Under the pieces are notes generated by a model. It made no database searches. It had not been told where the DNA came from and saw only the letters and a list, made by a program, of their open reading frames with translations. Shown one piece after another: positions 4,984-51,164 of a stretch of 64,000 bases of DNA. This stretch comes from Pseudarthrobacter sp. NIBRBAC000502772. Its GTDB lineage: Bacteria; Actinomycetota; Actinomycetes; Actinomycetales; Micrococcaceae. The stretch spans positions 434,001 through 498,000 of the forward strand of contig NZ_CP041188.1 in assembly GCF_006517235.1 (NCBI RefSeq), given 5' to 3'. How positions within the stretch are numbered: position 1 is the first letter of the stretch; each line of letters opens with the position of its first letter. The translations under genes were made by a program, and so were the position numbers.

Positions 4984-6665
4984 CAGCGGGCGCGCTCAAC
5001 CCGCTTTTCGTCCCACACAGGCTCGGGGGATTCGTAGACGCGGCCGTCGGAACCGAACACCAGGAACCGGTCGAAGGTGCGGGCGAACCAGCGGTCATGG
5101 GTGACTGCCAGGACGGTACCCTCGAAGTGGTCGATGGCCTTCTCCAGCGCCTCGGCCGAATGTAGGTCCAGGTTGTCCGTGGGCTCATCCAGCAGCAGGA
5201 GCGTGGCGCCGGAGAGCTGCAGCAGCAGGATCTGGAACCGTGCCTGCTGGCCGCCGGAGAGGGACTCGTACTTCTGCTCCGACTGCGACGCCAGGCCGTA
5301 GCCGTCCAATGCGCCGGCGGCTGCCTCCCGGCCCAGGCCGGACCGGTGCTCGTCGCCGCGGTGCAGGATCTCCAGCAGGGTCTTGCCCAAGAGGTCGGGC
5401 CGGACATGGGTCTGGGCGAAGAAGCCGGGCCGGATACGGGCGCCGAGTTTCACGGTCCCCTCGTGCGGCACTTCGGCAATATCGACGTCGGACACGGGAA
5501 GGTGCTCCCGTTCCGGGTCCGTCCCGCCCGTGGCGAGCAGGCGCAGGAAGTGGCTCTTGCCGGAGCCGTTGGAGCCGAGCACACCCACGCGGTCCCCGAA
5601 CCACACCTCGGTGGAGAACGGCTTCATCAGCCCGGTCAGTTCCAGTTTCTCGGCCACAACGGCCCGCTTGGCGGTCCGACCACCCTTCAGGCGCATGCGC
5701 ACGTTCTGCTCGATCGGCAGTGCTTCCGGCGGGCCGGCCTCGAGGAACTTGGCGAGGCGCGTCTGGGCGGCCTGGTAGCGGTTGGCCATGTCGGAGCGGA
5801 AGGCGGCCTTGTTTTTGTACATGTTGACGAGTTCCTTGAGCTTCACGTGCTCCTCGTCCCAGCGCTTGCGGAGCTCCTCGAAGCGGGCGTTCCGGTCAGC
5901 GCGGGCGTCAACGTAGGAGCCGAAGCCGCCGCCGTGCACCCAGGCGCCGGCTCCGTTGATGCCCGGCTCAAGGGTCACGATGCGGCCGGCAGCATTGTTG
6001 AGCAGCTCGCGGTCGTGGCTGATGAAGAAGACAGTCTTTTTGGACTCGTTCAGCTTGTCCTCAAGCCAGCGCTTGCCGGGCACATCGAGGTAGTTGTCCG
6101 GTTCGTCCAGGAGCAGGAGCTGGTCGGGTCCGGCAAACAGGGCCTCCAGCACCAGCCGCTTCTGCTCGCCGCCGGAAAGGCTCGACGCCGGGCGGTGCTG
6201 TGCGCGGTCAAAGGGCAGTCCCAGCGCGGCCATGCAGACCTCGTCCCAGACAGTCTCCACGTCATAACCGCCGGCATCTCCCCAGTCCACGATGGCCTGC
6301 GCGTACCGCATCTGGCTGGGCTCGTCGTCGTGCTCCACCATCGCGATCTCGGCCTCGTCCACCTCCCTGGCCGCGGCGGCCAGGGCCGGCGGAGCGGCGG
6401 ATACCAGCAGATCCCGGACGGTGGAATCGTCCCTGACCTGGCCCACGAACTGGCGCATTATGCCCATGTTTCCGGAGCGCCCGATCACACCTTCGTCCGG
6501 TACGAGGTCGCCGGAAATGATCCGGAAGAGGGTGGTCTTGCCCGTGCCGTTGGGGCCGATCAGGGCGGTTTTGGTACCGTCCGGGACCTTGAAAGTCACG
6601 CCGTTGAGCAGCTGGGTGCCATCGGAGAGGAAGTAGTCAATGCCGGAAATGTCTATGTGGGCCAC
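4983..6665 (-). CDS. ABC-F family ATPase (ribosome-associated type)
   Basis: This 560-residue protein has two ABC ATPase domains in tandem and no membrane segment. Domain 1 has GPNGTGKTT, LSGGEQKR and LLLDEPDNYLD. Domain 2 has GSNGSGKSH, LSGGQQAR and LLLDEPTDNLD. The charged linker between them (around residues 240-330, with ERADR/RWDEEHVKL helices) corresponds to the P-site tRNA interaction motif region. Members act on the ribosome, either as translation factors or as antibiotic-protection proteins; which applies here cannot be told. It is transcribed alone between two inverted-repeat blocks. Confidence 0.88.
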   Translation of the reverse strand: MAHIDISGIDYFLSDGTQLLNGVTFKVPDGTKTALIGPNGTGKTTLFRIISGDLVPDEGVIGRSGNMGIMRQFVGQVRDDSTVRDLLVSAAPPALAAAAREVDEAEIAMVEHDDEPSQMRYAQAIVDWGDAGGYDVETVWDEVCMAALGLPFDRAQHRPASSLSGGEQKRLVLEALFAGPDQLLLLDEPDNYLDVPGKRWLEDKLNESKKTVFFISHDRELLNNAAGRIVTLEPGINGAGAWVHGGGFGSYVDARADRNARFEELRKRWDEEHVKLKELVNMYKNKAAFRSDMANRYQAAQTRLAKFLEAGPPEALPIEQNVRMRLKGGRTAKRAVVAEKLELTGLMKPFSTEVWFGDRVGVLGSNGSGKSHFLRLLATGGTDPEREHLPVSDVDIAEVPHEGTVKLGARIRPGFFAQTHVRPDLLGKTLLEILHRGDEHRSGLGREAAAGALDGYGLASQSEQKYESLSGGQQARFQILLLQLSGATLLLLDEPTDNLDLHSAEALEKAIDHFEGTVLAVTHDRWFARTFDRFLVFGSDGRVYESPEPVWDEKRVERAR

Positions 6666-20636: not shown

Positions 20637-20963
20637 ATGAGCAACGCTAAAGACGTAACAGATGCAAGTTTTGCTGCGGACGTACTGTCGGCCGACAAGC
20701 CAGTAATTGTGGACTTCTGGGCTGAGTGGTGCGGCCCCTGCCGCAAGCTGGGACCCATCCTCGACGAGATCTCGGTCGAATACAGCGAGAAGGTTAATGT
20801 CGTCAAGCTCAACGTCGACGACAACCCCGCCATCGCCGCCGAGTACGGAATCACGTCCATCCCCGCCGTTTACCTGTTCCAGGACGGCCAGGTGAAGAGC
20901 ACTGTTATCGGTGCGAGGCCGAAGCAGTTCTTCGAAAAGGAATTTGCGGACGTCCTGTCCTAA
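20637..20963 (+). CDS. trxA: Thioredoxin
   Basis: This 108-residue cytoplasmic thioredoxin has the active site W31-C-G-P-C35 and the cis-proline in S-I-P76. It reduces protein disulfides and is recharged by TrxB encoded just upstream. Its length and motif spacing are typical of the family. A hairpin terminator follows 45 bases after the stop, ending the trxBA unit. Beyond it no gene is seen for 5.6 kb. Confidence 0.97.
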   Translation: MSNAKDVTDASFAADVLSADKPVIVDFWAEWCGPCRKLGPILDEISVEYSEKVNVVKLNVDDNPAIAAEYGITSIPAVYLFQDGQVKSTVIGARPKQFFEKEFADVLS

Positions 20964-21007
20964 TCAGGTAGGGGACTTCTGTCCCATATGACCAGTGACA
21001 CCGGCCT

Positions 21008-21047
21008 GTGGCCACTGCTTCCATGAAGCGGTGGCCACGCGTCTTTA
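21008..21047 (+). terminator. Terminator of trxBA
   Basis: GTGGCCACTGCTT (21008-21020) pairs with AAGCGGTGGCCAC (21026-21038) around a five-base loop (one G-T pair), followed by GCGTCTTTAAG. Confidence 0.7.
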
Positions 21048-21239
21048 AGACCGAGCCCGTCGAAGCACAACCACATTGCATCAACCTTGATTCGTTTCCT
21101 AACTTCAGTGATTGCTCAGAGTCGCTCCTGGGGATCCAATGCAGGGATGGGGTTCGTACCTATGAGGGCGAGCGGTTGTAAATTCCAGTCAGACGTCGCC
21201 GTCACCATCCTGGAGTTGGCCTTTCAGGATTCGGATTCT

Positions 21240-21255
21240 TGTTTCACGTGAAACA
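21240..21255. other. parS: parS site 1
   Basis: This is an exact TGTTTCACGTGAAACA palindrome, the ParB-binding centromere consensus. It is followed by TTGGCGATCG, as is site 2. Confidence 0.93.
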
Positions 21256-21471
21256 TTGGCGATCGAGATGCAGAGCCTAGTGGGCCTGGCCTCGCTCACG
21301 TGAGGAATCGGCGTACGACAATGTGGGACACTCGCAGGATGGCCGGTCTTCGTCGGCTTCGACCCCCGAGTTGCGGTCAGAAGGCATAGGTTCGCCGGCG
21401 GCAGGCAGAGCGTTCCCGGATTCCAGCTCACTACGGAATTCGTATCCCCGCCGACGCAAGCCTGAGTGCAC

Positions 21472-21487
21472 TGTTTCACGTGAAACA
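21472..21487. other. parS: parS site 2
   Basis: This exact TGTTTCACGTGAAACA shares its right flank TTGGCGATCG with site 1, so the two are copies of a longer unit. Confidence 0.93.
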
Positions 21488-21683
21488 TTGGCGATCGCGA
21501 AGCATGGATTCATGTGCAACATCGGCGATTCGCCAATCCAACGGGCGTATGGTGCGGCCACGCTCGCGGGTCGAGCGAAATTTCTTGGTCGTCAGTGCAT
21601 GCTGATCCTTACATCCGAGTGCCCTTGCCGCACGACAATGCCGCAGCGATTCAGTTCGACATACTTGAATTCAGTTGAGTTCA

Positions 21684-21708
21684 GCTCGGCTCGGCTCGGC
21701 TCGGCTCG
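21684..21708. repeat. Tandem repeat, GCTCG x5
   Basis: Five perfect copies of GCTCG lie in the gene-free region. Confidence 0.85.
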
Positions 21709-21779
21709 ATAAATCAATCAACCCAGGCTTCCACTTTCGTGACGGTCCTACTCTGCAAACTGATGCGTACCCCGCGCTA

Positions 21780-21795
21780 TGTTTCACGTGAAACA
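21780..21795. other. parS: parS site 3
   Basis: This is an exact TGTTTCACGTGAAACA palindrome in the gene-free region. Confidence 0.93.
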
Positions 21796-22177
21796 CGGCC
21801 GAAGCCTGCGACAGTCTGCTCCCTCCAGTCCTACTGGCCTGCCCGACGGCATTCGAGCCAGTCCCCAAGGATCGGGTTCACGCGATGTGGCCGTATTGCG
21901 TCCCCTCCATTCGCTGAGGAGAATATCCGCGGCGCACTCAAAGACTAGATCGAACAATGAGCAGCGAATGCCAATTGGATTAGGTGGCCTAGTGGCCTTC
22001 ACGCCCCGTTTCACCTCGCGGAGGACAATGTGGGACCGGAGCATGAGACTACCGGAAGAACCCTGACCAGACCAGCGTTCCAGTCTCGCTCGCCGTCCAT
22101 GGTCTAAAATCAAACGCCGATTCATACAGTTGACTCCTAGAAGCTCCGGGTTCCAAGGGTTGGTCAGACTCAACACC

Positions 22178-22208
22178 TGGTCGGGGGAATCGGGGCTGGT
22201 CGGGGGAG
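22178..22208. repeat. Short direct repeat CTGGTCGGGGGA
   Basis: CTGGTCGGGGGA occurs twice, 18 bases apart (starting 22178 and 22196), with a G-rich sequence between. Confidence 0.7.
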
Positions 22209-22946
22209 TCGTCGCTGGCAAGAGAAGCCAGGGAACGCCGGGGGACACCAGGTGACTGCTATTGGTTAGGATCCGAGCAATTGGAATGGATTTCCGACAT
22301 CATATGGCACCGGCCCGTCGTAAGTGACTGGCCTCTCTCGAATTGACTGCCAGATCGGAAATGGGCACAAGTCGAATCGCCAAACCGCAGCCCGTCGGTA
22401 ATCTGCCGCGACAGTATCCAGTTCAGTGACAGCCTGACCAGTTGCAGCAGTCCATTCTTGTCCACAGCATGTCGACGACACACCAGCGCGCAACTCAAGA
22501 TTCAGCGACCCCCGGGAACATACTCACACAGCGTTGGGAACCCGCAAGCACAGACAAGGTGCCTGCGCACGAATTCGAGACCGTCGGCTTGGAGACTCAC
22601 TAAGCCCCTCCGCCGATACCTGCAGTCTTGGGTGGTGATTCAGGATACGCACGGAGTGGGCACGCGTCGTGCATTCGGTCTCTACTCGCTGCGCTGGTGG
22701 GTCCATTAGGACCATCGCTCGTATTGTCCGAGATGTCCATGACGCCGATGGCCCGAAGAGGAAGCACATGCGGAGATTGTCCAAGCCAGATATTCCCCTC
22801 AGCCGCAGCCCGCGACGGTCTCGACACACACTTGTTGGCGCCTCACCCCTTCACAACGCCGTGCTCGTCTCCGCGGGGCCACACCAAGAGACGGGCCATA
22901 CCAGGAGGCCTCCTGCGCGCCGCGCGTGCGGGCCGGCAAAGACGGC

Positions 22947-22970
22947 ACGAGGACACGAGGACACGAGGAC
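22947..22970. repeat. Tandem repeat, ACGAGGAC x3
   Basis: Three perfect copies of the 8-mer ACGAGGAC lie 24 bases before parS site 4. Confidence 0.85.
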
Positions 22971-22993
22971 GCGGTTAGTCTTCCACGTCCGAC

Positions 22994-23009
22994 TGTTTCA
23001 CGTGAAACA
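22994..23009. other. parS: parS site 4
   Basis: This exact TGTTTCACGTGAAACA is the first of three sites within 107 bases. Confidence 0.93.
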
Positions 23010-23056
23010 TTCCGGCCCCGGTGACGGCTTCGTGAATGACAAGATCTCGAGCGTAC

Positions 23057-23072
23057 TGTTTCACGTGAAACG
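23057..23072. other. parS: parS site 5
   Basis: TGTTTCACGTGAAACG matches the consensus at 15 of 16 positions, with the last base changed. Confidence 0.88.
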
Positions 23073-23084
23073 AACTAGGCGCGC

Positions 23085-23100
23085 TGTTTCACGTGAAACA
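23085..23100. other. parS: parS site 6
   Basis: This exact TGTTTCACGTGAAACA lies only 12 bases after site 5. Confidence 0.93.
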
Positions 23101-23921
23101 AACTGAATGAAATCCCCGTCCAAGCCTTCCCGGGATGGGATGCTAAGAACGCCGGCTTCGCGCGTGCTGGATGCTATCTCCTGAGGCCAACTCCCAGATG
23201 GCCGCAACCCCACGTCAAGCTAGTTGGGCCACGACCGAAAATTCGAAGAGACCCGGGCCACCCGTACACACCCCAGCCACACGAGGAATACACTTCTCAC
23301 CCCGGGAATGCTCAATACTGCCGGGCGCCCTCGATCCTGCCACTGGGCCCTGTGGACGATTGCGTGACAGCTGAGCCTTCGCCCACGCCCTGCGGTCCGC
23401 TGCGTCGATGGGGGACCGTCAGTCTGAACCAGGACAGGAAGACCGTGATCGCCGTGTACCTGCCCGTGGCCAAAATAGGCGCTGTGGCTTCTCCGCCACG
23501 CACACGTCCGTTCGCAAGACCGCTGCGGCTGCCGTCCGGTCAGCGAAGGACGGTACCAGAGCCACCTTGCTCGGTCATCAGCGCAGGACGGCATCGGAAC
23601 CACCTGCTCGGTCTCCATCACGTCAGTCCGCACTGCTGCTCCCGACCGGAGCGACACGCGTCGGCATGTGCCGTTAGGATGCGCGTCTGATCAAGGCACC
23701 AGGCACCCAGCTGCGAACGCATCCTAAGGCAGGTCATGAGTCATCTGGCCAATGCCGACTTTCATGCTCGAACGGCGGAGCCTAGGTGCCCGACCAACTC
23801 CACACCAAAGACCTGGAGCAGGTGATGAATGCCAGCGGAGGACTGAATCGTATCCATCCGAAGTGTGACTATTCGGTTCGACTGGAGGGTTCCATCGCGC
23901 TGATGTCCACCGACTTCGAAG

Positions 23922-23967
23922 TTATCCCCAAATGTTATCCACACCGATATCCACAGGCTTATCCACC
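23922..23967 (+). other. Phased array of four DnaA-box-like 9-mers (array 1)
   Basis: TTATCCCCA (23922), TTATCCACA (23935), ATATCCACA (23947) and TTATCCACC (23959) all face the same way, with start-to-start spacings of 13, 12 and 12 bases. One is a perfect DnaA box and the others have a single mismatch. The array lies 9 kb left of dnaA, outside the usual oriC. Confidence 0.75.
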
Positions 23968-24159
23968 GGCCTTCAAACCGTGGACACGGTACCCCTGGTG
24001 CCGGACTTTGGATCAGCCGACACCCTCAAGCCGGAGTTGCTCCCAGGACAACTACCACGGCCGAAGCGCATGCGCACGTCGGACTGTAAATATCGGCGAA
24101 AATCCAACTATTGAAGTCGCTTTCCGCCCGGAGAGAGAGTCCCGATCGGGCCTTGGTAA

Positions 24160-24175
24160 TGTTTCACGTGAAACG
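24160..24175. other. parS: parS site 7
   Basis: TGTTTCACGTGAAACG (15 of 16) lies between the two DnaA-box arrays. Confidence 0.88.
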
Positions 24176-24270
24176 GGACTGCAGACGATATCCAATGCTC
24201 GTGCGGACCGCTCGTTGCCGGATCCGATGGTGTGGGCCGAATCTCTTCGTGATCCCTGCCACCAAGGAAC

Positions 24271-24315
24271 CTATCCACAAAGTTATCCACAGTGATATCC
24301 ACCATGTTATCCACC
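24271..24315 (+). other. Phased array of four DnaA-box-like 9-mers (array 2)
   Basis: CTATCCACA (24271), TTATCCACA (24283), ATATCCACC (24295) and TTATCCACC (24307) repeat at exactly 12 bases in one orientation. The order of variants parallels array 1, including an ATATCCAC unit in third place, so the two arrays are probably duplicates. Confidence 0.78.
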
Positions 24316-24934
24316 GCGCAGTTCACACCTTCGGGCCCAAGGCTGACTTGGCCCCATCTGTTGTTGTGGCAAGTTTGCCGCACACGATGATGAAGAGTGG
24401 GCCGAGGAATCATAGTTCCCCGAGCATTCTCTTTCCCATAAAACAGGCTGTTGCCCGTCTGGCTAGCCGATTCATTCTCGGCAGGGCCATGATCCGACGT
24501 GACTGCAATTGTGGCCGCTTCCCGATGTCGAGTCCGAACCTCTCCGAACAGTCGCGTCTGTTTCAAACTGCTGAACAACAAGACGACTCGGCTTCCACCA
24601 ATTCCTTCCCGTCCCGGACACTCCAAGACTGGGGCTATTCTGTGCACCCCGCGGCCACGTCCTAGAGGGGCGAAGCCAAGTCGCGGAGCTGGTTCAGAGA
24701 CGCACTATGGCGAGCTACCCAGCGTCATGCTGTAACGACTTAGAGTGTCGCAGTCCTGCCCAGGGCGGTGGTCCCGTATGACGCAGCCGGCGACACTGTT
24801 GGCCAAGCCAGGGGGACCGAGGCACCCTCCTGACATTCGTGTGTATCGAGGCACCCTGCAGATTCAGTTCCGTCCACATCCCGTCTCCACAAAAGGCTAT
24901 TAGACGAAAGGCCCCGGGGCCGAGGTCGTACGTG

Positions 24935-24982
24935 CCTGCCTACCTGCCTACCTGCCTACCTGCCTACCTGCCTACCTGCCTA
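24935..24982. repeat. Tandem repeat, CCTGCCTA x6
   Basis: Six perfect copies of an 8-base unit lie in the gene-free region; the frames that cross it read as simple L-P-x-Y repeats. Confidence 0.9.
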
Positions 24983-25510
24983 CCTCAGCCGATGCTACCG
25001 GTGCGCCGGCGTGCGCCAACAGCCCGGCCCTAGCCCGAATATCCGGAGATGCCTCAACCTCAGGCATCGACACTGCCTGCCAGCTAAGAAGTCCTCGGAT
25101 GCGCCAGGAAGTCATCTGTTCAGGCTAACTGCCCGGCGAGTGGAACTCAGGCGTCAGGGTTGGGGCCACCACGCACGGGACATGCTGGACCCTGACCATC
25201 GCTCTCTCCACCCGACTACGAACCCTCCGGACGGCTTACCAAGGTCCCAGAGCCCTGGGCAGGTGCGCTGGGTCCGCAGGATGTCGCCAGCGGCGGGCCG
25301 TCACTGCCGGCCGGGGGATTGTGGGCGGAATCTTCCTCGAGGCGAGAAGAGGCCAACGTGGGCTCTAAGCCGTCAACTCCACAGTCCGTGAATTGTCTCT
25401 GTTCCAGCGGCGATCGATGTGGGAGGGCGCCTGCGCTGCATGTTTACAATCCGAGTCGCAGCCCGCTCGACGACGCCGCGAGGGCGACGGGGCGACCGGT
25501 TGTCGGGGTC

Positions 25511-25558
25511 CTGGGGTGCCGGGGTGCTGGGGTGCTGGGGTGCTGGGGTGCCTGGGTG
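25511..25558. repeat. Tandem repeat, CTGGGGTG x6 (two units degenerate)
   Basis: Six 8-base units are present; units 2 and 6 each differ slightly from CTGGGGTG. This is the third octamer repeat in the region. Confidence 0.88.
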
Positions 25559-25606
25559 CCGGGGCCATGGGGGAGATGCCGGCACGGTGCGCTGGACTCG
25601 CCACTA

Positions 25607-25622
25607 TGTTTCACGTGAAACC
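25607..25622. other. parS: parS site 8
   Basis: TGTTTCACGTGAAACC has 15 of 16 consensus bases. Confidence 0.87.
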
Positions 25623-25890
25623 ATTTGGAAGACGGCTGGGCGTAGGCCGAGCCTGCTCAGCAATCTCGGCTACCTCACGAAGCTTGGTGAATTGCTTCTG
25701 CAGGAGTGTTTCTGCCCCGGCTTTGGCTGCGGGCGAAGTCCCTCGGATGCTGCAAAGCCGAATTCACTTCACCAGCCGCATCCGCAGCGCAGGTAACTCG
25801 CTGGCATCACTCGCCGAGGGCTTTAGACCCTACCACCTTCATGTTTGTTCTCGATGGCGCCGACGCCTAGATCGCGCGCATACCTGTTGA

Positions 25891-25906
25891 TGTTTCACGT
25901 GAAACA
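25891..25906. other. parS: parS site 9
   Basis: This is an exact TGTTTCACGTGAAACA palindrome. Confidence 0.93.
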
Positions 25907-26605
25907 GCCACCGCGAGGCGCCTTCCCATCCGAACCCGGATGTTGCCGAACCAGACTGAAGGTCGGAAGACTATCTGGCGACGTGTCTCCGGGGGAGACG
26001 TCCACCCTGGCGCATCCTCTCAGTCACCGTGCCAGCCACAGGCTGAGGCCAACAGCTGCACGGGTGCGTACGCTGCGCACCAGATCTCTGGAATAGGACG
26101 GGGCAAGAGCATTCGAACACGGTGTTTCCGCCGCCCTGCAGGATGACCACCGCACCCGACTGATTGGAAATTGCGCGAACCGACGCATTCTTTACTGCCT
26201 CGGAGCAACGGAACCCATTGCATGCCCAGTATCAAGAGTCGCATCGGAATGTCCAGCGATCCGTCGAGTCCTCCACTCCTGCCTGATCTCCGTCTCGAGA
26301 GTTCGCAGCCCCGCCATCTGCATCGCCCTCAGGCCCACCTCCAGTGCGTCAGCAAACCCGAAGCCACAGAAGTCCACCACTGCCGTGGGAACACAAGCAG
26401 AGACGACAGTCGTTGGAAGAGACCAGTCTCTAGGGGAATCCAGGCAGCAGACAGTGCAAAACTCGCGTCCCCACAACGGAACTATCCCATCGGGACCAGC
26501 GTGTTCCGCCATGCGAACCACGGGCTCGATCCCGGGGGCGCGTCACAACCACGATGGCCACGCCAGTATCAGCTCCGGAGTGCAAAGATGGCGTCGATTC
26601 AGACG

Positions 26606-26643
26606 AAAGAAGGGCCTGTTTCACGTGAAACAGGCCCTTCTTT
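26606..26643. terminator. parS: 38-bp perfect palindrome centred on parS site 10 (26617-26632), behind parB
   Basis: The parS core TGTTTCACGTGAAACA is flanked on both sides by 11 further complementary bases (AAAGAAGGGCC and GGCCCTTCTTT), giving a 38-bp palindrome without a single mismatch. It begins 12 bases beyond the parB stop. As RNA it would form a long hairpin with the A/T-rich ends of a bidirectional terminator; as DNA it is a ParB nucleation site. Confidence 0.85.
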
Positions 26644-26655
26644 GAACGGAGAACG

Positions 26656-27963
26656 CTAGTTTTCAGATCCTGGCGCAAGAACTTCCATGATGCGGTTCAG
26701 GTCTTCAACACTGGCGAATTCAATGCTGACACGCCCCTTGCGGACACCCAGGGAAATCTTGACGTTGGTGTCCAAGCGGTCGGACAGCGAGGATGCCAGA
26801 TAGTCCAGGCGCTCATGGCGGGCTCCCGGACGAGGGATATTGTTCTTTGCAGGCTTCGCAGGATCCTGGTAGAGAGTGACGGCCTCTTCGGTTGCCCGAA
26901 CAGACATGCCTTCAGCCACGATCTTCTGGGCGAGGCGTTCCATGGCTGCTGCATCCGGCAGGGCGAGCAGCGCGCGCGCGTGGCCAGCGGAAATAACGCT
27001 GGCCGCCACACGACGCTGAACCAGGGGTGGAAGTTTGAGGAGACGCAGCGTGTTCGAAACCTGGGGACGTGACCGGCCAATGCGGTCCGCAAGCTGCTCG
27101 TGAGTGGTTCCGAAGTCTTCAAGCAGCTGCTGGTAGGCCGCAGCCTCTTCGAGCGGGTTCAACTGGCTGCGGTGCAGGTTCTCCAGCAGTGCATCCCTGA
27201 GGAGGTCATCATCAGTGGTGTCCCGGACAATGGCTGGGATGGTCGCCATCCCGGCCGCCTGTACTGCCCTCCAGCGACGCTCACCCATCACCAGCTCGTA
27301 CGGTTCTCCACCTTCTTCGGTTGAGGTACGAACCACAATTGGCTGGAGGACGCCGATTTCGCGCACGGAGTGGATTAGCTCCGCCATGTCATCGTCATCG
27401 AAGACTGAGCGGGGCTGTTTGCGGTTCGGATGGATGTCGGTGACCGGAATCTCGGCAAACCGCACGCCGGGGACTTCCACGAGGTCAACACCGTTATCCG
27501 GCGTACTGCTCTGGGACTCAGACACCTCGGACACAGACTCGCCAGTCGCGCCTTCAACTGGCGTGGGCGAACCATCCACCGTTGATGTAGTTGCACCGCC
27601 CTTTGCAGGAGCTTTCGCGGGAGCCTTGGCGGGAGCATTTGCGGCCGGCAGCTTCTCTGCTGCCTTGGCCGACGGATTCGCGGGGGAGGCCGTTCTCGGC
27701 GCGGCTGCCTTCTTGGTTACCGATGCGTCGTTGGCCTGGGTCGGCGCGATCGACTCGGAAACAACCGACTCCGAAGATGCAGCATCTGAAGCTGCCCCAC
27801 CATTCCCTGAAGCGTCGTCAGGGGACCCGACTTTCTTACGGCCTTCGGGGAAGAAGAGATCCACGGGCCGCGACGCAGCGCCGCCGTTGCCCGACGCACT
27901 ACCGGCGGAACTTGGAATGAGTGCGCCAAGACCGCGGCCTAGGCCACGTCGCTTTTCGCTCAT
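26656..27963 (-). CDS. parB: Chromosome-partitioning protein ParB
   Basis: The protein has 435 residues. The N-terminal [14 protein letters not shown] motif contacts ParA. The CTPase/ParB motif is seen as G227-E-R-R-W-R-A233, a helix-turn-helix lies near 286-308, and a C-terminal dimerisation segment ends the protein. It binds parS, spreads as a CTP-dependent clamp and loads SMC. Between residues about 17 and 165 there is a long Ala/Pro/Lys/Ser-rich linker, much longer than in most ParB proteins. It is 66 bases from parA on the same strand and sits next to ten parS sites. Confidence 0.96.
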
Positions 27964-28029
27964 GGATAAATCCCTCCGATGGAAGAGTCAGATCTTGCCG
28001 GACTCCGGTTGTTGCAGTTCTTGAAGATT

Positions 28030-29103
28030 CTAGCGTTCAGCGATTTCGGCTGCAGCTTCCAGGTAAGACAGGGCTCCACTGGAGGAAGGATCGTACGTCA
28101 TGACGGTTTGCTGGTAGCTCGGAGCTTCTGAAATCCGCACGGAGCGGGGGACTACAGCACCAAGGACCTGCTCGGGGAAGTGGAGGCGAACTTCCGCTGC
28201 CACCTGGGCTGCAAGATTGGTCCGTCCGTCATACATCGTGAGGAGAATAGTGGAGACCACCAGATCCGCATTCAGGTGCTTCTGGATCATCTCAATGTTC
28301 TTGAGGAGCTGACTGAGGCCTTCCAGTGCGTAGTACTCACACTGGATGGGGATAAGGACCTCACCGGCAGCACAGAAGGCATTAACCGTAAGCAACCCGA
28401 GGCTGGGCGGGCAGTCAATGAAGATGTAGTCGAGGCGTTTTTCGCCGTTCTTTGCCCGGGTCTTGGCATAGACATCGATCGCCCGGCGGAGCCGCTGTTC
28501 ACGGGCCACAAGCGAAACAAGCTCAATCTCCGCTCCGGCCAGGTGAATGGTGGCAGGAGCACAAATCAGGTTGCTGATGTCCGGGCAGGGTGCCACGACG
28601 TCAGCAAGAGGGAAATCGTTGATGAGGACGTCGTAGATGCTGTCCACATCGGCATGGTGCTCGACGCCGAGGGCGGTGGAGGCGTTGCCCTGGGGATCGA
28701 TGTCAATGACCAGGACGTTCAGGCCGGCTGCGGCCAGGGCAGCAGCGATGTTCACGGTGGTGGTGGTCTTGCCCACGCCGCCTTTTTGGTTGGACACCGT
28801 GAAGATACGGGTCTTCTCCGGCTTGGGAAGTTTCCGGCCAACCAGCCGTTCGCGGCGCCTGGTCTCGTGCGCGAGTTCCCGGGCGATAGGACTGGAATCG
28901 TCCATGGTGTCCATGACGTTGATCCTGCCTCCCGTTGTTGTTTCACGTGAAACAGAGGCAAGGATTGCCATTTCAGCAACCGGATTAGGGTGACTTTCCC
29001 CTCGTCCGGGCACGGAACCCATACCCATGCCAGCAACTGATCGTGCTGACCCCAAAGACACGAACGGGGGTATCCGTTGTGTGGAGGCTTCGCTACTGGT
29101 CAC
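28030..29103 (-). CDS. parA: Chromosome-partitioning ATPase ParA
   Basis: This Walker-type ATPase has the deviant Walker A motif K107-G-G-V-G-K-T-T, the D-x-D-P-Q-G-N switch and I-D-C-P-P-S Walker B. It forms the nucleoid-bound gradient that moves ParB-parS complexes. The long form (357 residues, GTG at 29103) is given, but its ribosome site is weak. An ATG at 28914 (MDTMDDS), preceded by AGGA, would give 294 residues. With the short start, parS site 11 would lie in the 5' leader; with the long start it encodes V-S-R-E-T. Confidence 0.93.
   Translation of the reverse strand: MTSSEASTQRIPPFVSLGSARSVAGMGMGSVPGRGESHPNPVAEMAILASVSRETTTGGRINVMDTMDDSSPIARELAHETRRRERLVGRKLPKPEKTRIFTVSNQKGGVGKTTTTVNIAAALAAAGLNVLVIDIDPQGNASTALGVEHHADVDSIYDVLINDFPLADVVAPCPDISNLICAPATIHLAGAEIELVSLVAREQRLRRAIDVYAKTRAKNGEKRLDYIFIDCPPSLGLLTVNAFCAAGEVLIPIQCEYYALEGLSQLLKNIEMIQKHLNADLVVSTILLTMYDGRTNLAAQVAAEVRLHFPEQVLGAVVPRSVRISEAPSYQQTVMTYDPSSSGALSYLEAAAEIAER
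28939..28954. other. parS: parS site 11, in the 5' part of parA
   Basis: This exact TGTTTCACGTGAAACA lies 25 bases upstream of the alternative parA start at 28914 and inside the longer frame. ParB binding here could affect parAB expression. Confidence 0.92.
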
Positions 29104-34286: not shown

Positions 34287-34814
34287 GCCGTCGCCTCTAT
34301 ACCTTATTAACAGGTGCGTGTGGATAACCCTGTGGATACTTAAGGGGACAACCGAGCTTAATGGGCTTAAAACCCTTAAGCCGCCTGTGGATCAGCGAAA
34401 ACCCAAAAATTGTTATCCCCATCCACAGCCTGTTTAAAACCTGCGTCACCCACAATCCATGAACAGGGCTTAACCGCTGGATCCTGCGGCCGGATCGAGT
34501 TATCCACAGTATCCACAGCAGTTATTAACACTACTAATCCCAAGAAATTGATTTCCCTCAAATAACAATCTCGATCCGCACCCCGAACCGGCCCAGGCCC
34601 AAGGGCCTCCGGACCCCAGGCGTCCTGACCGGGGATGGGTTAATCAGCCGTCTTCCGGCTAAGCTGTCAGCAGCGCTCCCATCCTCGGGTTTCTTTGTGG
34701 TTCAGCACTCGATGAACCATGCAGGTTCCGTTGTTGGGGCGCCACTACTTTTGGGCTCCCTGTGGGAGTTTCCGGTTCAGACAAGGCAGCAGCAATGAAA
34801 GGCGGCACCCTTCC
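34287..34814. other. oriC: oriC: dnaA-dnaN intergenic region
   Basis: DnaA boxes are seen at 34319 (TGTGGATAA), 34331 (TGTGGATAC, 12 bases on), 34386 (TGTGGATCA), 34413 (TTATCCCCA), 34500 (TTATCCACA) and 34509 (GTATCCACA). An inverted pair CTTAAGGG / CCCTTAAG (34339-34346, 34373-34380) lies among several TTAA words. An AT-rich stretch at about 34519-34570 follows the last boxes and is the best candidate for the unwinding element. The dnaN promoter should lie in the remaining 240 bases. Confidence 0.88.
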
Positions 34815-49827: not shown

Positions 49828-49947
49828 CTGTGCCGGGTGAGGCTTCCGCATCGCGCTGCCCGTTCACTTGCTGCGTGCGTCCCGGCGTGCGAGCAGCCGG
49901 TGGTCCGCGTCAAGCCACGACGACGGCGCCGAAGTTATCCACAGTGG

Positions 49948-49987
49948 TTATCCACACTGTTGGTAACTTACACGGGTGTAGTTCAGG
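49948..49987 (+). repeat. Duplicated DnaA-box/palindrome unit, copy A
   Basis: A TTATCCACA box is followed by TGTT and the 19-base imperfect palindrome AACTTACACGGGTGTAGTT (49965-49983). Copy B at 50190 has the same order and matches at about 28 of 40 positions. Confidence 0.6.
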
Positions 49988-50189
49988 ATTTCGATGTGCC
50001 CCTGCTCCCGGGTGTCCGCCCTTTTGCCGGATTGGATCATCCGGTTGTCCACAATTGTGGACAACACCCGGGGATGCGCCTGTGGTTAAGTGGAAAAACA
50101 CGCCATTTGAGCCCGACCTGTGGATATCCTGGCCATTTTCCGCGCCGGGGGCCCATACGAGGGGATCCGGCCTGCCCGTATCAACAGGG

Positions 50190-50229
50190 TTATTCACAGT
50201 GTTAACAACTTACAGACATGTAGTTAACC
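50190..50229 (+). repeat. Duplicated DnaA-box/palindrome unit, copy B
   Basis: TTATTCACA is followed by TGTT and AACTTACAGACATGTAGTT (50207-50225). The pairing of the palindrome arms is kept although the central bases differ from copy A. Confidence 0.6.
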
Positions 50230-50407
50230 ATCAGTGTTTCCCCGACTGGGGCAGCTGAGGCGTCCGCTCGGGCCGTCCTGTGGATTGTTGTCCACAACTG
50301 TGGATAACTTGTGGGTAGTCCAGTGTTAGTAAGTGGATAACACGGTGTGTGCGAGGGTGTTCCTACGCAGCATCGGACCCAGCAAGCTTCCAGCCAGGAG
50401 GACCGCC

Positions 50408-50881
50408 TTGAGCGCCACCGCAACAACCCAGCACATCTACCTCGACAAGCAGCACCCCGCGGTATGGCGCGCTCTCAACGGTCTGGGGCTGAAAGTGCGC
50501 GAAGCCGCCGACGCGGCCGGGATTGACCGCAAGACCATAGAGCTGCTCAACGTGCGGATCTCCCAGATCAACGGCTGTGCCTATTGCCTCGACATGCATG
50601 TACGGGACGCCATGGAGGCCGGGGAGAGCCAGCAGCGGCTTGCTGTCCTGCCGGCGTGGCGCGAGACGGCCCTGTTCACGGACAAGGAGCGGGCTGCCCT
50701 TGCCTTGGCAGAATGCATCACCGAACTGCCGGACCACCGGACCACCGAGCTTGAGGAAGGATATGCGCGTCAGCACCTCAGCGCCGACGAATTTTCGGCG
50801 GTCAGCTGGCTGGTGATCACCATGAATGCCTTTAACCGGGTGTCCATCACCAGCCACCATCCGGTCCGCCGGGATCGCTGA
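50408..50881 (+). CDS. AhpD-like carboxymuconolactone decarboxylase-family protein
   Basis: This 157-residue protein has the AhpD core C-A-Y-C-L-D-M-H (redox C-x-x-C plus His), typical of alkylhydroperoxidase-like thiol peroxidases and related dehydrogenase partners. A TTG start at 50408 is selected because a strong AGGAGG lies seven bases upstream and family similarity begins just after. The gene is isolated and flanked on both sides by DnaA-box-rich DNA. A peroxidase or other thiol-redox role is a family inference. Confidence 0.83.
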   Translation: MSATATTQHIYLDKQHPAVWRALNGLGLKVREAADAAGIDRKTIELLNVRISQINGCAYCLDMHVRDAMEAGESQQRLAVLPAWRETALFTDKERAALALAECITELPDHRTTELEEGYARQHLSADEFSAVSWLVITMNAFNRVSITSHHPVRRDR

Positions 50882-51013
50882 CGGGCCCAGAACCGGTAAC
50901 GGACCACGCAGGACACGGGCAGGGCAACTGAGATTGCCCCGGGCCTTTAGCGGACTCCCGGATGTGCCTCCGGGTGGTGACACCAAGGATCGCCGTGGTC
51001 GGGTCAGTGTGAA

Positions 51014-51164
51014 TTATCCACAGCCAATCCACAATGTTAATAACTGTCCGTCCGAGCGCTTTGGATCCGGTCCCGTGCGCCATGGCCTGCACGGGCGGCT
51101 ATCGGTTCCGGCGCCGGGAAAAGTTATACACATTGTGGATAACTTTCCCAACAGCTGTGGACAA
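51014..51164. other. DnaA-box-rich intergenic region, part 2
   Basis: TTATCCACA (51014), TTATACACA (51124), TGTGGATAA (51134) and TGTGGACAA (51156) lie between the AhpD-like gene and tag. The word CACAATGTTAATAACT near 51031 resembles the CACxxTGTTxxxAACT core of the duplicated units of part 1. Confidence 0.72.

Follow-up and report, generated by a model that had tools for sequence, protein, structure and literature searches.

Two phased DnaA-box arrays and a parS at near-constant distance in the centromere spacer of Pseudarthrobacter: a candidate DnaA-binding module

Genes, parS sites and DnaA boxes at the locus

The window, i.e. the whole stretch of 64,000 bp that was analysed, corresponds to positions 434001-498000 of the 4.80-Mb genome of Pseudarthrobacter sp. 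NIBRBAC000502772, which is assembled in one contig. The ParB encoded in the window has its nearest relatives among Arthrobacter/Pseudarthrobacter records. The gene order is trxB, trxA, a 5.7-kb spacer, then parB, parA, gidB, a KH/R3H (jag-like) gene and yidC on the minus strand, followed by dnaA, oriC and dnaN (Table 1). The trxA gene, which we take from its sequence to encode a thioredoxin, is close to parB in most of the relatives fetched. A scan of the whole chromosome gave 11 perfect parS sites, all at 21241-28953 and all but one in the spacer; with one mismatch allowed no extra site was found chromosome-wide.

Table 1. Features of the locus, in coordinates of the window
Feature	Coordinates	Strand	Description
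trxA	20637..20963	+	ORF; left border of the spacer
Centromere spacer	20964..26655	.	non-coding, between convergent trxA and parB; holds ten parS
parS sites in the spacer	starts 21241, 21473, 21781, 22995, 23058, 23086, 24161, 25608, 25892, 26618		
Array 1	23922..23967	+	four 9-mers, steps 13/12/12: 23922 TTATCCCCA, 23935 TTATCCACA, 23947 ATATCCACA, 23959 TTATCCACC
parS between the arrays	24161..24174	.	GTTTCACGTGAAAC, perfect; start lies 122 bp ahead of the strong box in array 2
Array 2	24271..24315	+	four 9-mers, steps 12/12/12: 24271 CTATCCACA, 24283 TTATCCACA, 24295 ATATCCACC, 24307 TTATCCACC
parB	26656..27963	-	Pfam HTH_ParB, ParB_N, ParB_C
Eleventh parS	28940..28953	.	within parA
parA	28030..29103	-	Pfam AAA_31, CbiA
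dnaA	32862..34286	+	Pfam Bac_DnaA, Bac_DnaA_C
oriC	34287..34718	.	dnaA-dnaN intergenic; called by position and boxes; AT-rich stretch at 34520

Two arrays of predicted DnaA boxes lie near the middle of the parS cluster. The preliminary description of this DNA reported four 9-mers in each, all on one strand and with the steps of Table 1, and all eight are present. Its view that the phasing is not due to chance agrees with 300 dinucleotide shuffles of the spacer, in which no run of three or more phased boxes occurred. A three-box pattern searched with at most two mismatches in the 4.80-Mb chromosome gave three overlapping matches over both arrays and one match in oriC. Pairs of boxes with the 12-bp step are also found in the genome's own oriC and upstream of dnaA. 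The arrays had been placed 9 kb from oriC; they are near it, but the measured distance is about 10 kb, and the first box upstream of dnaA is 8.3 kb away.

The spacer is non-coding and its flanking genes converge, so that there is no obvious gene for the arrays to regulate. A coding or promoter role was rejected on account of this convergence, the lack of any Pfam family match at E up to 1 for the ten ORFs of the spacer, and the lack of a preference for multiples of three in the spacings. A plasmid origin was also rejected, as a plasmid match was absent.

Other groups of DnaA boxes were observed. At 49935-51164 of the window, about 15-16 kb to the right of oriC and 17 kb from the start of dnaA, ten plus four boxes, with head-to-head pairs, surround an AhpD-like gene. 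Six of six relatives fetched (L145-L150) have clusters at the corresponding place, including one without an ahpD or Tag hit (L147), and this cluster may be a site of DnaA control across oriC from the arrays. Three perfect DnaA boxes occur within 460 bp about 54 kb to the left of the arrays (G000:C1:403061-403518). Two genomes of another genus (L159 and L160, genus g29) have compact clusters of nine DnaA boxes with no parB, trxA, dnaN, rhomboid, ahpD or Tag hits around them.

Occurrence and conservation in relatives

The exact three-box pattern was found in its own genome only among 394 class-sampled genomes (own included). In a sample of the family, with up to one mismatch allowed, it occurs in 63 of the 77 genomes from the same genus (own included) as against 16 of 318 from other genera. 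Three of the latter 16 were inspected: the match in L158 adjoins dnaN, and those in L159 and L160 have no parB, trxA or dnaN hits in 14-15 kb. All 14 same-genus genomes without a match (G005, G018, G096, G143, G163 and nine more) were inspected as well, and 13 have the pair of arrays and a close parS, the one without being G163. Array 2 is weak in some of these 13 (10.9 bits in L263, 15.4 in L256). Three further genomes (G008, G009 and G032) were added as two-mismatch matches or from the same search; two have the pair and G032 does not.

The preliminary description had taken absence of the phased pattern from all relatives that keep the region as evidence against its reading; the array pair, with a parS no more than about 145 bp from array 2, is present in 76 of the 77 same-genus genomes of the even sample (own included). 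The exceptions in the genus are G163 (locus L258) in this sample, where array 2 is doubtful and no parS is close, and G032 (locus L267) outside it. L267 was observed to have no arrays and just two parS in 8.5 kb beside parB, in an assembly that is 94% complete and in 240 contigs.

Among 80 named loci fetched by ParB, 25 have arrays with a best array-2 score of at least 27 bits (L009-L027, L029, L030, L034, L048, L054 and L075, for which the same genus label is not proven), and the Sinomonas locus L028 has weak arrays (11 bits). The other 54 gave nothing above 13 bits to the left of parB, the spacer being incomplete in some of them. Since these 54 include loci named Arthrobacter or Paenarthrobacter (L031-L033, L035, L036), names do not track the element. 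In all, 105 loci were measured (the own locus, 25 named and 79 others), and five near-duplicates were dropped to give 100 distinct genomes, most of them drawn by a three-box match or a similar ParB; four of the 12 loci added late duplicate earlier ones.

An 820-bp alignment of 34 sequences gave as conserved blocks array 1, parS, array 2 and two A columns near 24099; between the arrays no conserved block beyond parS and these columns was found by alignment or by alignment-free comparison. Pairwise identity anchored on array 2 in 10-bp bins, which needs no alignment, was 0.74-0.90 over a core of three boxes and 0.25-0.29 just outside it in the 34 genomes. This peak, together with the box set seen across spacing classes (below), places the conserved core of array 2 in its first three boxes, while the pair of array 1 that is conserved in relatives consists of the boxes at 23935 and 23947. 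The preliminary description noted ATATCCAC in third place in both arrays. This holds in the own genome and is frequent for array 2 (22 of 34 aligned sequences), but not for array 1 of relatives, where the third box is ATATCCACA in four of 34 and TTATCCACA in 24 of 34. The 12-bp same-strand step leads the distances between boxes in 33 spacers of the genus, with 136 pairs, and there are no opposite-strand pairs at 12 bp in the same spacers. The arrays are 319-394 bp apart in 99 of the 100 distinct genomes. Both were found, 331-391 bp apart, in eight loci held out of the profile, with array 1 down to 11.3 bits in one; array 1 is weak in some other genomes too (7.4 bits in L203). The pattern of the arrays is real and conserved, and is apparently under selection.

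The separation is 1.85 kb in the remaining genome, L014. Here, in the reverse complement, the arrays are at 6116 and 7967, as if DNA had been inserted between them, and the distance from a parS to array 2 is still 119 bp.

Spacing between parS and array 2

All 100 genomes have a parS with no or one mismatch at a distance of at most 144 bp from array 2; 94 of these sites are perfect and six, at 112-134 bp, have one mismatch. The parS is upstream in 84 genomes, 109-144 bp before the strong box, and downstream in 16, at 76-104 bp. The arrays had been said to flank a parS, which they do in the own genome; as a general rule this bracketing was rejected, because parS is outside the arrays in these 16. 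Most of the genomes had been picked by the box pattern, and 15 more that were not chosen by the one-mismatch pattern were therefore inspected (among them G008 and G009, which the search with two mismatches had found). Thirteen have the pair, with parS 120-134 bp upstream in 11 and 80-90 bp downstream in two; G163 and G032 are without.

Most of these spacers have 5-11 parS, so that in a single genome the closeness of some parS would be unremarkable. The distance is kept without the sequence: among pairs of genomes with equal spacing, 367 of 394 have less than 40% identity between parS and array 2, the median being 28%. With the interval from array 1 to parS in the same DNA as a control, the interval from parS to array 2 changed about 5.5-fold less per free bp, in 25 of 27 phylogenetic contrasts (Wilcoxon p ~5e-6). 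The contrasts covered 28 of the first 35 genomes, leaving out six with a downstream parS and L014. The trees of the analysis were built on ParB or on ParB, TrxA and TrxB.

The 84 upstream spacings group at about 110, 121, 133 and 144 bp, and 77 of them are within 2 bp of 121+11k, where a uniform spread would give about 45%. This lattice was picked after the first set of genomes (26 of 29 fit). The second set (28 of 31) had already been seen when the prediction was noted, and the third (23 of 24) and later sets came after it. All 11 upstream values of the later set fit, eight of them from genomes new to the count. When genomes with related interval sequences are grouped, 62 of 68 clusters fit the lattice, and 25 of 29 do so with the main mode excluded. 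The separation between the arrays has modes near 323, 333, 346, 356, 367, 379 and 392 bp, and in the third set 27 of 28 separations were within 3 bp of modes noted beforehand, for which chance would give about 60%. The next-nearest parS gave no periodicity.

Slippage in the register of the boxes was rejected as the source of the 11-bp modes, because the box set of array 2 (-12, 0, +12) is the same in every spacing class. The -24 position has a near-random match in the main classes and is partly box-like in two genomes at 143-144 bp and in the downstream class. With a constant box set and a mostly random -24 position, true insertions and deletions are the likelier origin for most genomes, but probably not for L026, whose five boxes point to a register shift. 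For the separation of the arrays, register shifts of 12 bp may be the cause: only ten of 18 changes of at least 4 bp between independent pairs fit multiples of about 11.5 bp.

For 39 independent pairs on the ParB tree, the difference in spacing is 0-3 bp in 32, 4 and 6 bp in two, and 10-12 bp in five. Comparison of the sequences thus indicates that the spacing is likely to be phased on the DNA helix; it is not proven, as the independent changes are few (a minimum of 16 over all classes) and the tree is of one gene. A more tentative suggestion, possible rather than probable, is that DnaA oligomers on arrays 1 and 2 and ParB bound to the parS about 11 turns from array 2 form one stereospecific complex on the same face of the DNA, and that evolution mostly adds or removes whole turns. 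To our knowledge, this would be the first centromere with helix-phased initiator and partition sites.

Twin arrays with steps of 12-13 bp were also found in the same spacer of two sister genera, g28 (Sinomonas-like, four of four genomes) and g40 (three of three). The parB of g28 has 80-81% DNA identity to that of L028. In g40 the strong box of array 1 is followed by a parS that starts 92-103 bp further on (with one mismatch in L247). One g28 genome of the four has a parS starting 120 bp ahead of this box; the other three have none within 280 bp, and the Sinomonas locus L028 has none within 600 bp. Arrays can therefore exist without the lock to parS. Because the sister genera combine arrays with other arrangements of parS, the arrays seem to be older than the lock to one parS, and the distance of about 90-130 bp seems to have arisen in several arrangements. 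Ten genomes of nine other genera have no twin array, three of them (L246, L250, L252) having hardly any spacer. In the g53 genome L254 the spacer has six parS and zero boxes, and no box with up to one mismatch was found in the parS spacer of L031, L032 or L254. A three-box array with 12-bp steps was observed in the oriC region of L031-L033, which at a guess belong to g53. Eleven g53 genomes match the three-box pattern; in four, the match lies close to the beginning of contig 1.

A candidate DnaA-ParB module, its rivals and known systems

The spacing lock between parS and array 2 ties the arrays to parS. We lean towards a reading, somewhat favoured by the sequence comparisons, in which the element forms part of the centromere, as a DnaA-binding module where DnaA oligomers and ParB meet. 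A link of DnaA with ParB-parS had already been suggested in the preliminary description, and the locked spacing speaks for it; that the arrays would belong with one particular parS at a near-fixed distance goes beyond that guess. The pattern suggests that the machineries for copying and separating the chromosome meet at the arrays. DnaA-ATP would nucleate on the strong box of each array and spread head-to-tail across the weak neighbours, while ParB would load at the adjacent parS. The two assemblies could then touch or interfere, by which the DnaA level would be coupled with the state of the centromere. A point against such a module is that ParB clamps slide on DNA, for which alone a fixed distance is not needed.

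The claim that the phasing suits cooperative DnaA binding is supported by the 12-bp step kept in relatives and by the in vivo preference of E. coli DnaA for boxes with gaps of 2-3 bp (PMC11317965). Head-to-tail oligomers of ATP-DnaA are favoured by direct repeats (PMC10316083), and a strong box with weak ones at this step would suit such an oligomer. Contact with DnaA, or an effect on it, is described for ParA or ParB proteins of B. subtilis, Deinococcus and Vibrio (PMC7022226). The coupling could take two forms: DnaA might license movement of the centromere, as proposed for Caulobacter, or ParB might set how much DnaA stays close to oriC, in the way that ParB2 acts on RctB at rctA-parS2 of Vibrio.

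The main rival explanation, which we consider unlikely, is a site for titration or inactivation of DnaA, similar to datA or to the Bacillus and Streptomyces clusters, that would retain DnaA close to oriC following duplication and curb re-initiation, with the parS cluster as no more than convenient non-coding DNA. The arrays are close to oriC, early replicated and in one direction, as are the essential boxes of datA (PMC5742627, which also cites titration by DnaA-box clusters in Streptomyces); initiation came early in B. subtilis after removal of six DnaA-box clusters (PMC5295017); and the Sinomonas-like arrays are mostly without a close parS. Titration would explain the boxes, but not a distance from parS to array 2 that is kept without sequence. 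It is quite improbable that the boxes bind another protein, or that an unseen third element sets the spacing. The DnaA binding is predicted from sequence, and the two conserved A columns near 24099 could mark such an element, but the 9-mers are the DnaA consensus, they occur as 12-bp pairs also in oriC and upstream of dnaA, and there is no other conserved block in the interval. A DARS-like site that exchanges ADP for ATP on DnaA is very improbable: DARS are non-coding groups of DnaA boxes and the DARS1 region of E. coli has a 12-bp same-strand pair, but the three E. coli stretches scanned have no run of three phased same-strand boxes. A second replication origin or unwinding site, with box arrays of the oriC type, is barely credible, as 50-bp GC content gave no AT-rich unwinding element beside the arrays in the own genome (lowest value 0.40, as against 0.28 in oriC) or in the 100 genomes (mean 0.41, minimum 0.32).

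The coordination of replication initiation with segregation is an old open question. If the element is such a module, about 100 natural variants define it as compact and give its permitted distances, and they predict that half-turn insertions would disrupt it. Natural controls are provided by related genera whose spacers are rich in parS but have no DnaA boxes. A search of the open-access literature, with subscription literature mostly outside its coverage, gave neither a paper that deals with DnaA boxes at the centromere of Arthrobacter nor a report of selection on initiator-site geometry at centromeres, those of Caulobacter and Vibrio included.

Same-strand boxes 2-3 bp apart are present here as in the E. 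coli double DnaA box, with the difference that there are 2-5 boxes per array and two arrays. The arrays form a one-direction DnaA-box cluster outside oriC, and are in this respect like the non-coding clusters of B. subtilis and Streptomyces and like E. coli datA. We know of no lock to a parS at any of these. datA differs also in needing an IHF site, and the datA stretch that was scanned has no same-strand pair at 11-13 bp. The rctA-parS2-B region of Vibrio cholerae chromosome II is similar in that a control site for the initiator adjoins a parS (PMC3688505), and a predicted initiator site near a parS is found in all 100 genomes here. Vibrio ParB reaches rctA and is proposed to interfere with binding of the initiator (PMC3688505). 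The Vibrio initiator is RctB and its site a 39-mer at the edge of the origin, whereas here DnaA boxes lie about 10 kb from oriC. In Caulobacter crescentus, DnaA binds the parS centromere (Mera et al. 2014, via PMC6399470 and PMC4468827), so that the centromere contains an initiator site, at about 8 kb from the origin, and coupling of DnaA-ATP with segregation has been proposed (PMC6399470, PMC4468827); the DnaA boxes described here are likewise within a parS region near oriC. Caulobacter belongs to another phylum, and the candidate module here has two phased multi-box arrays locked to a parS amid ten parS sites.
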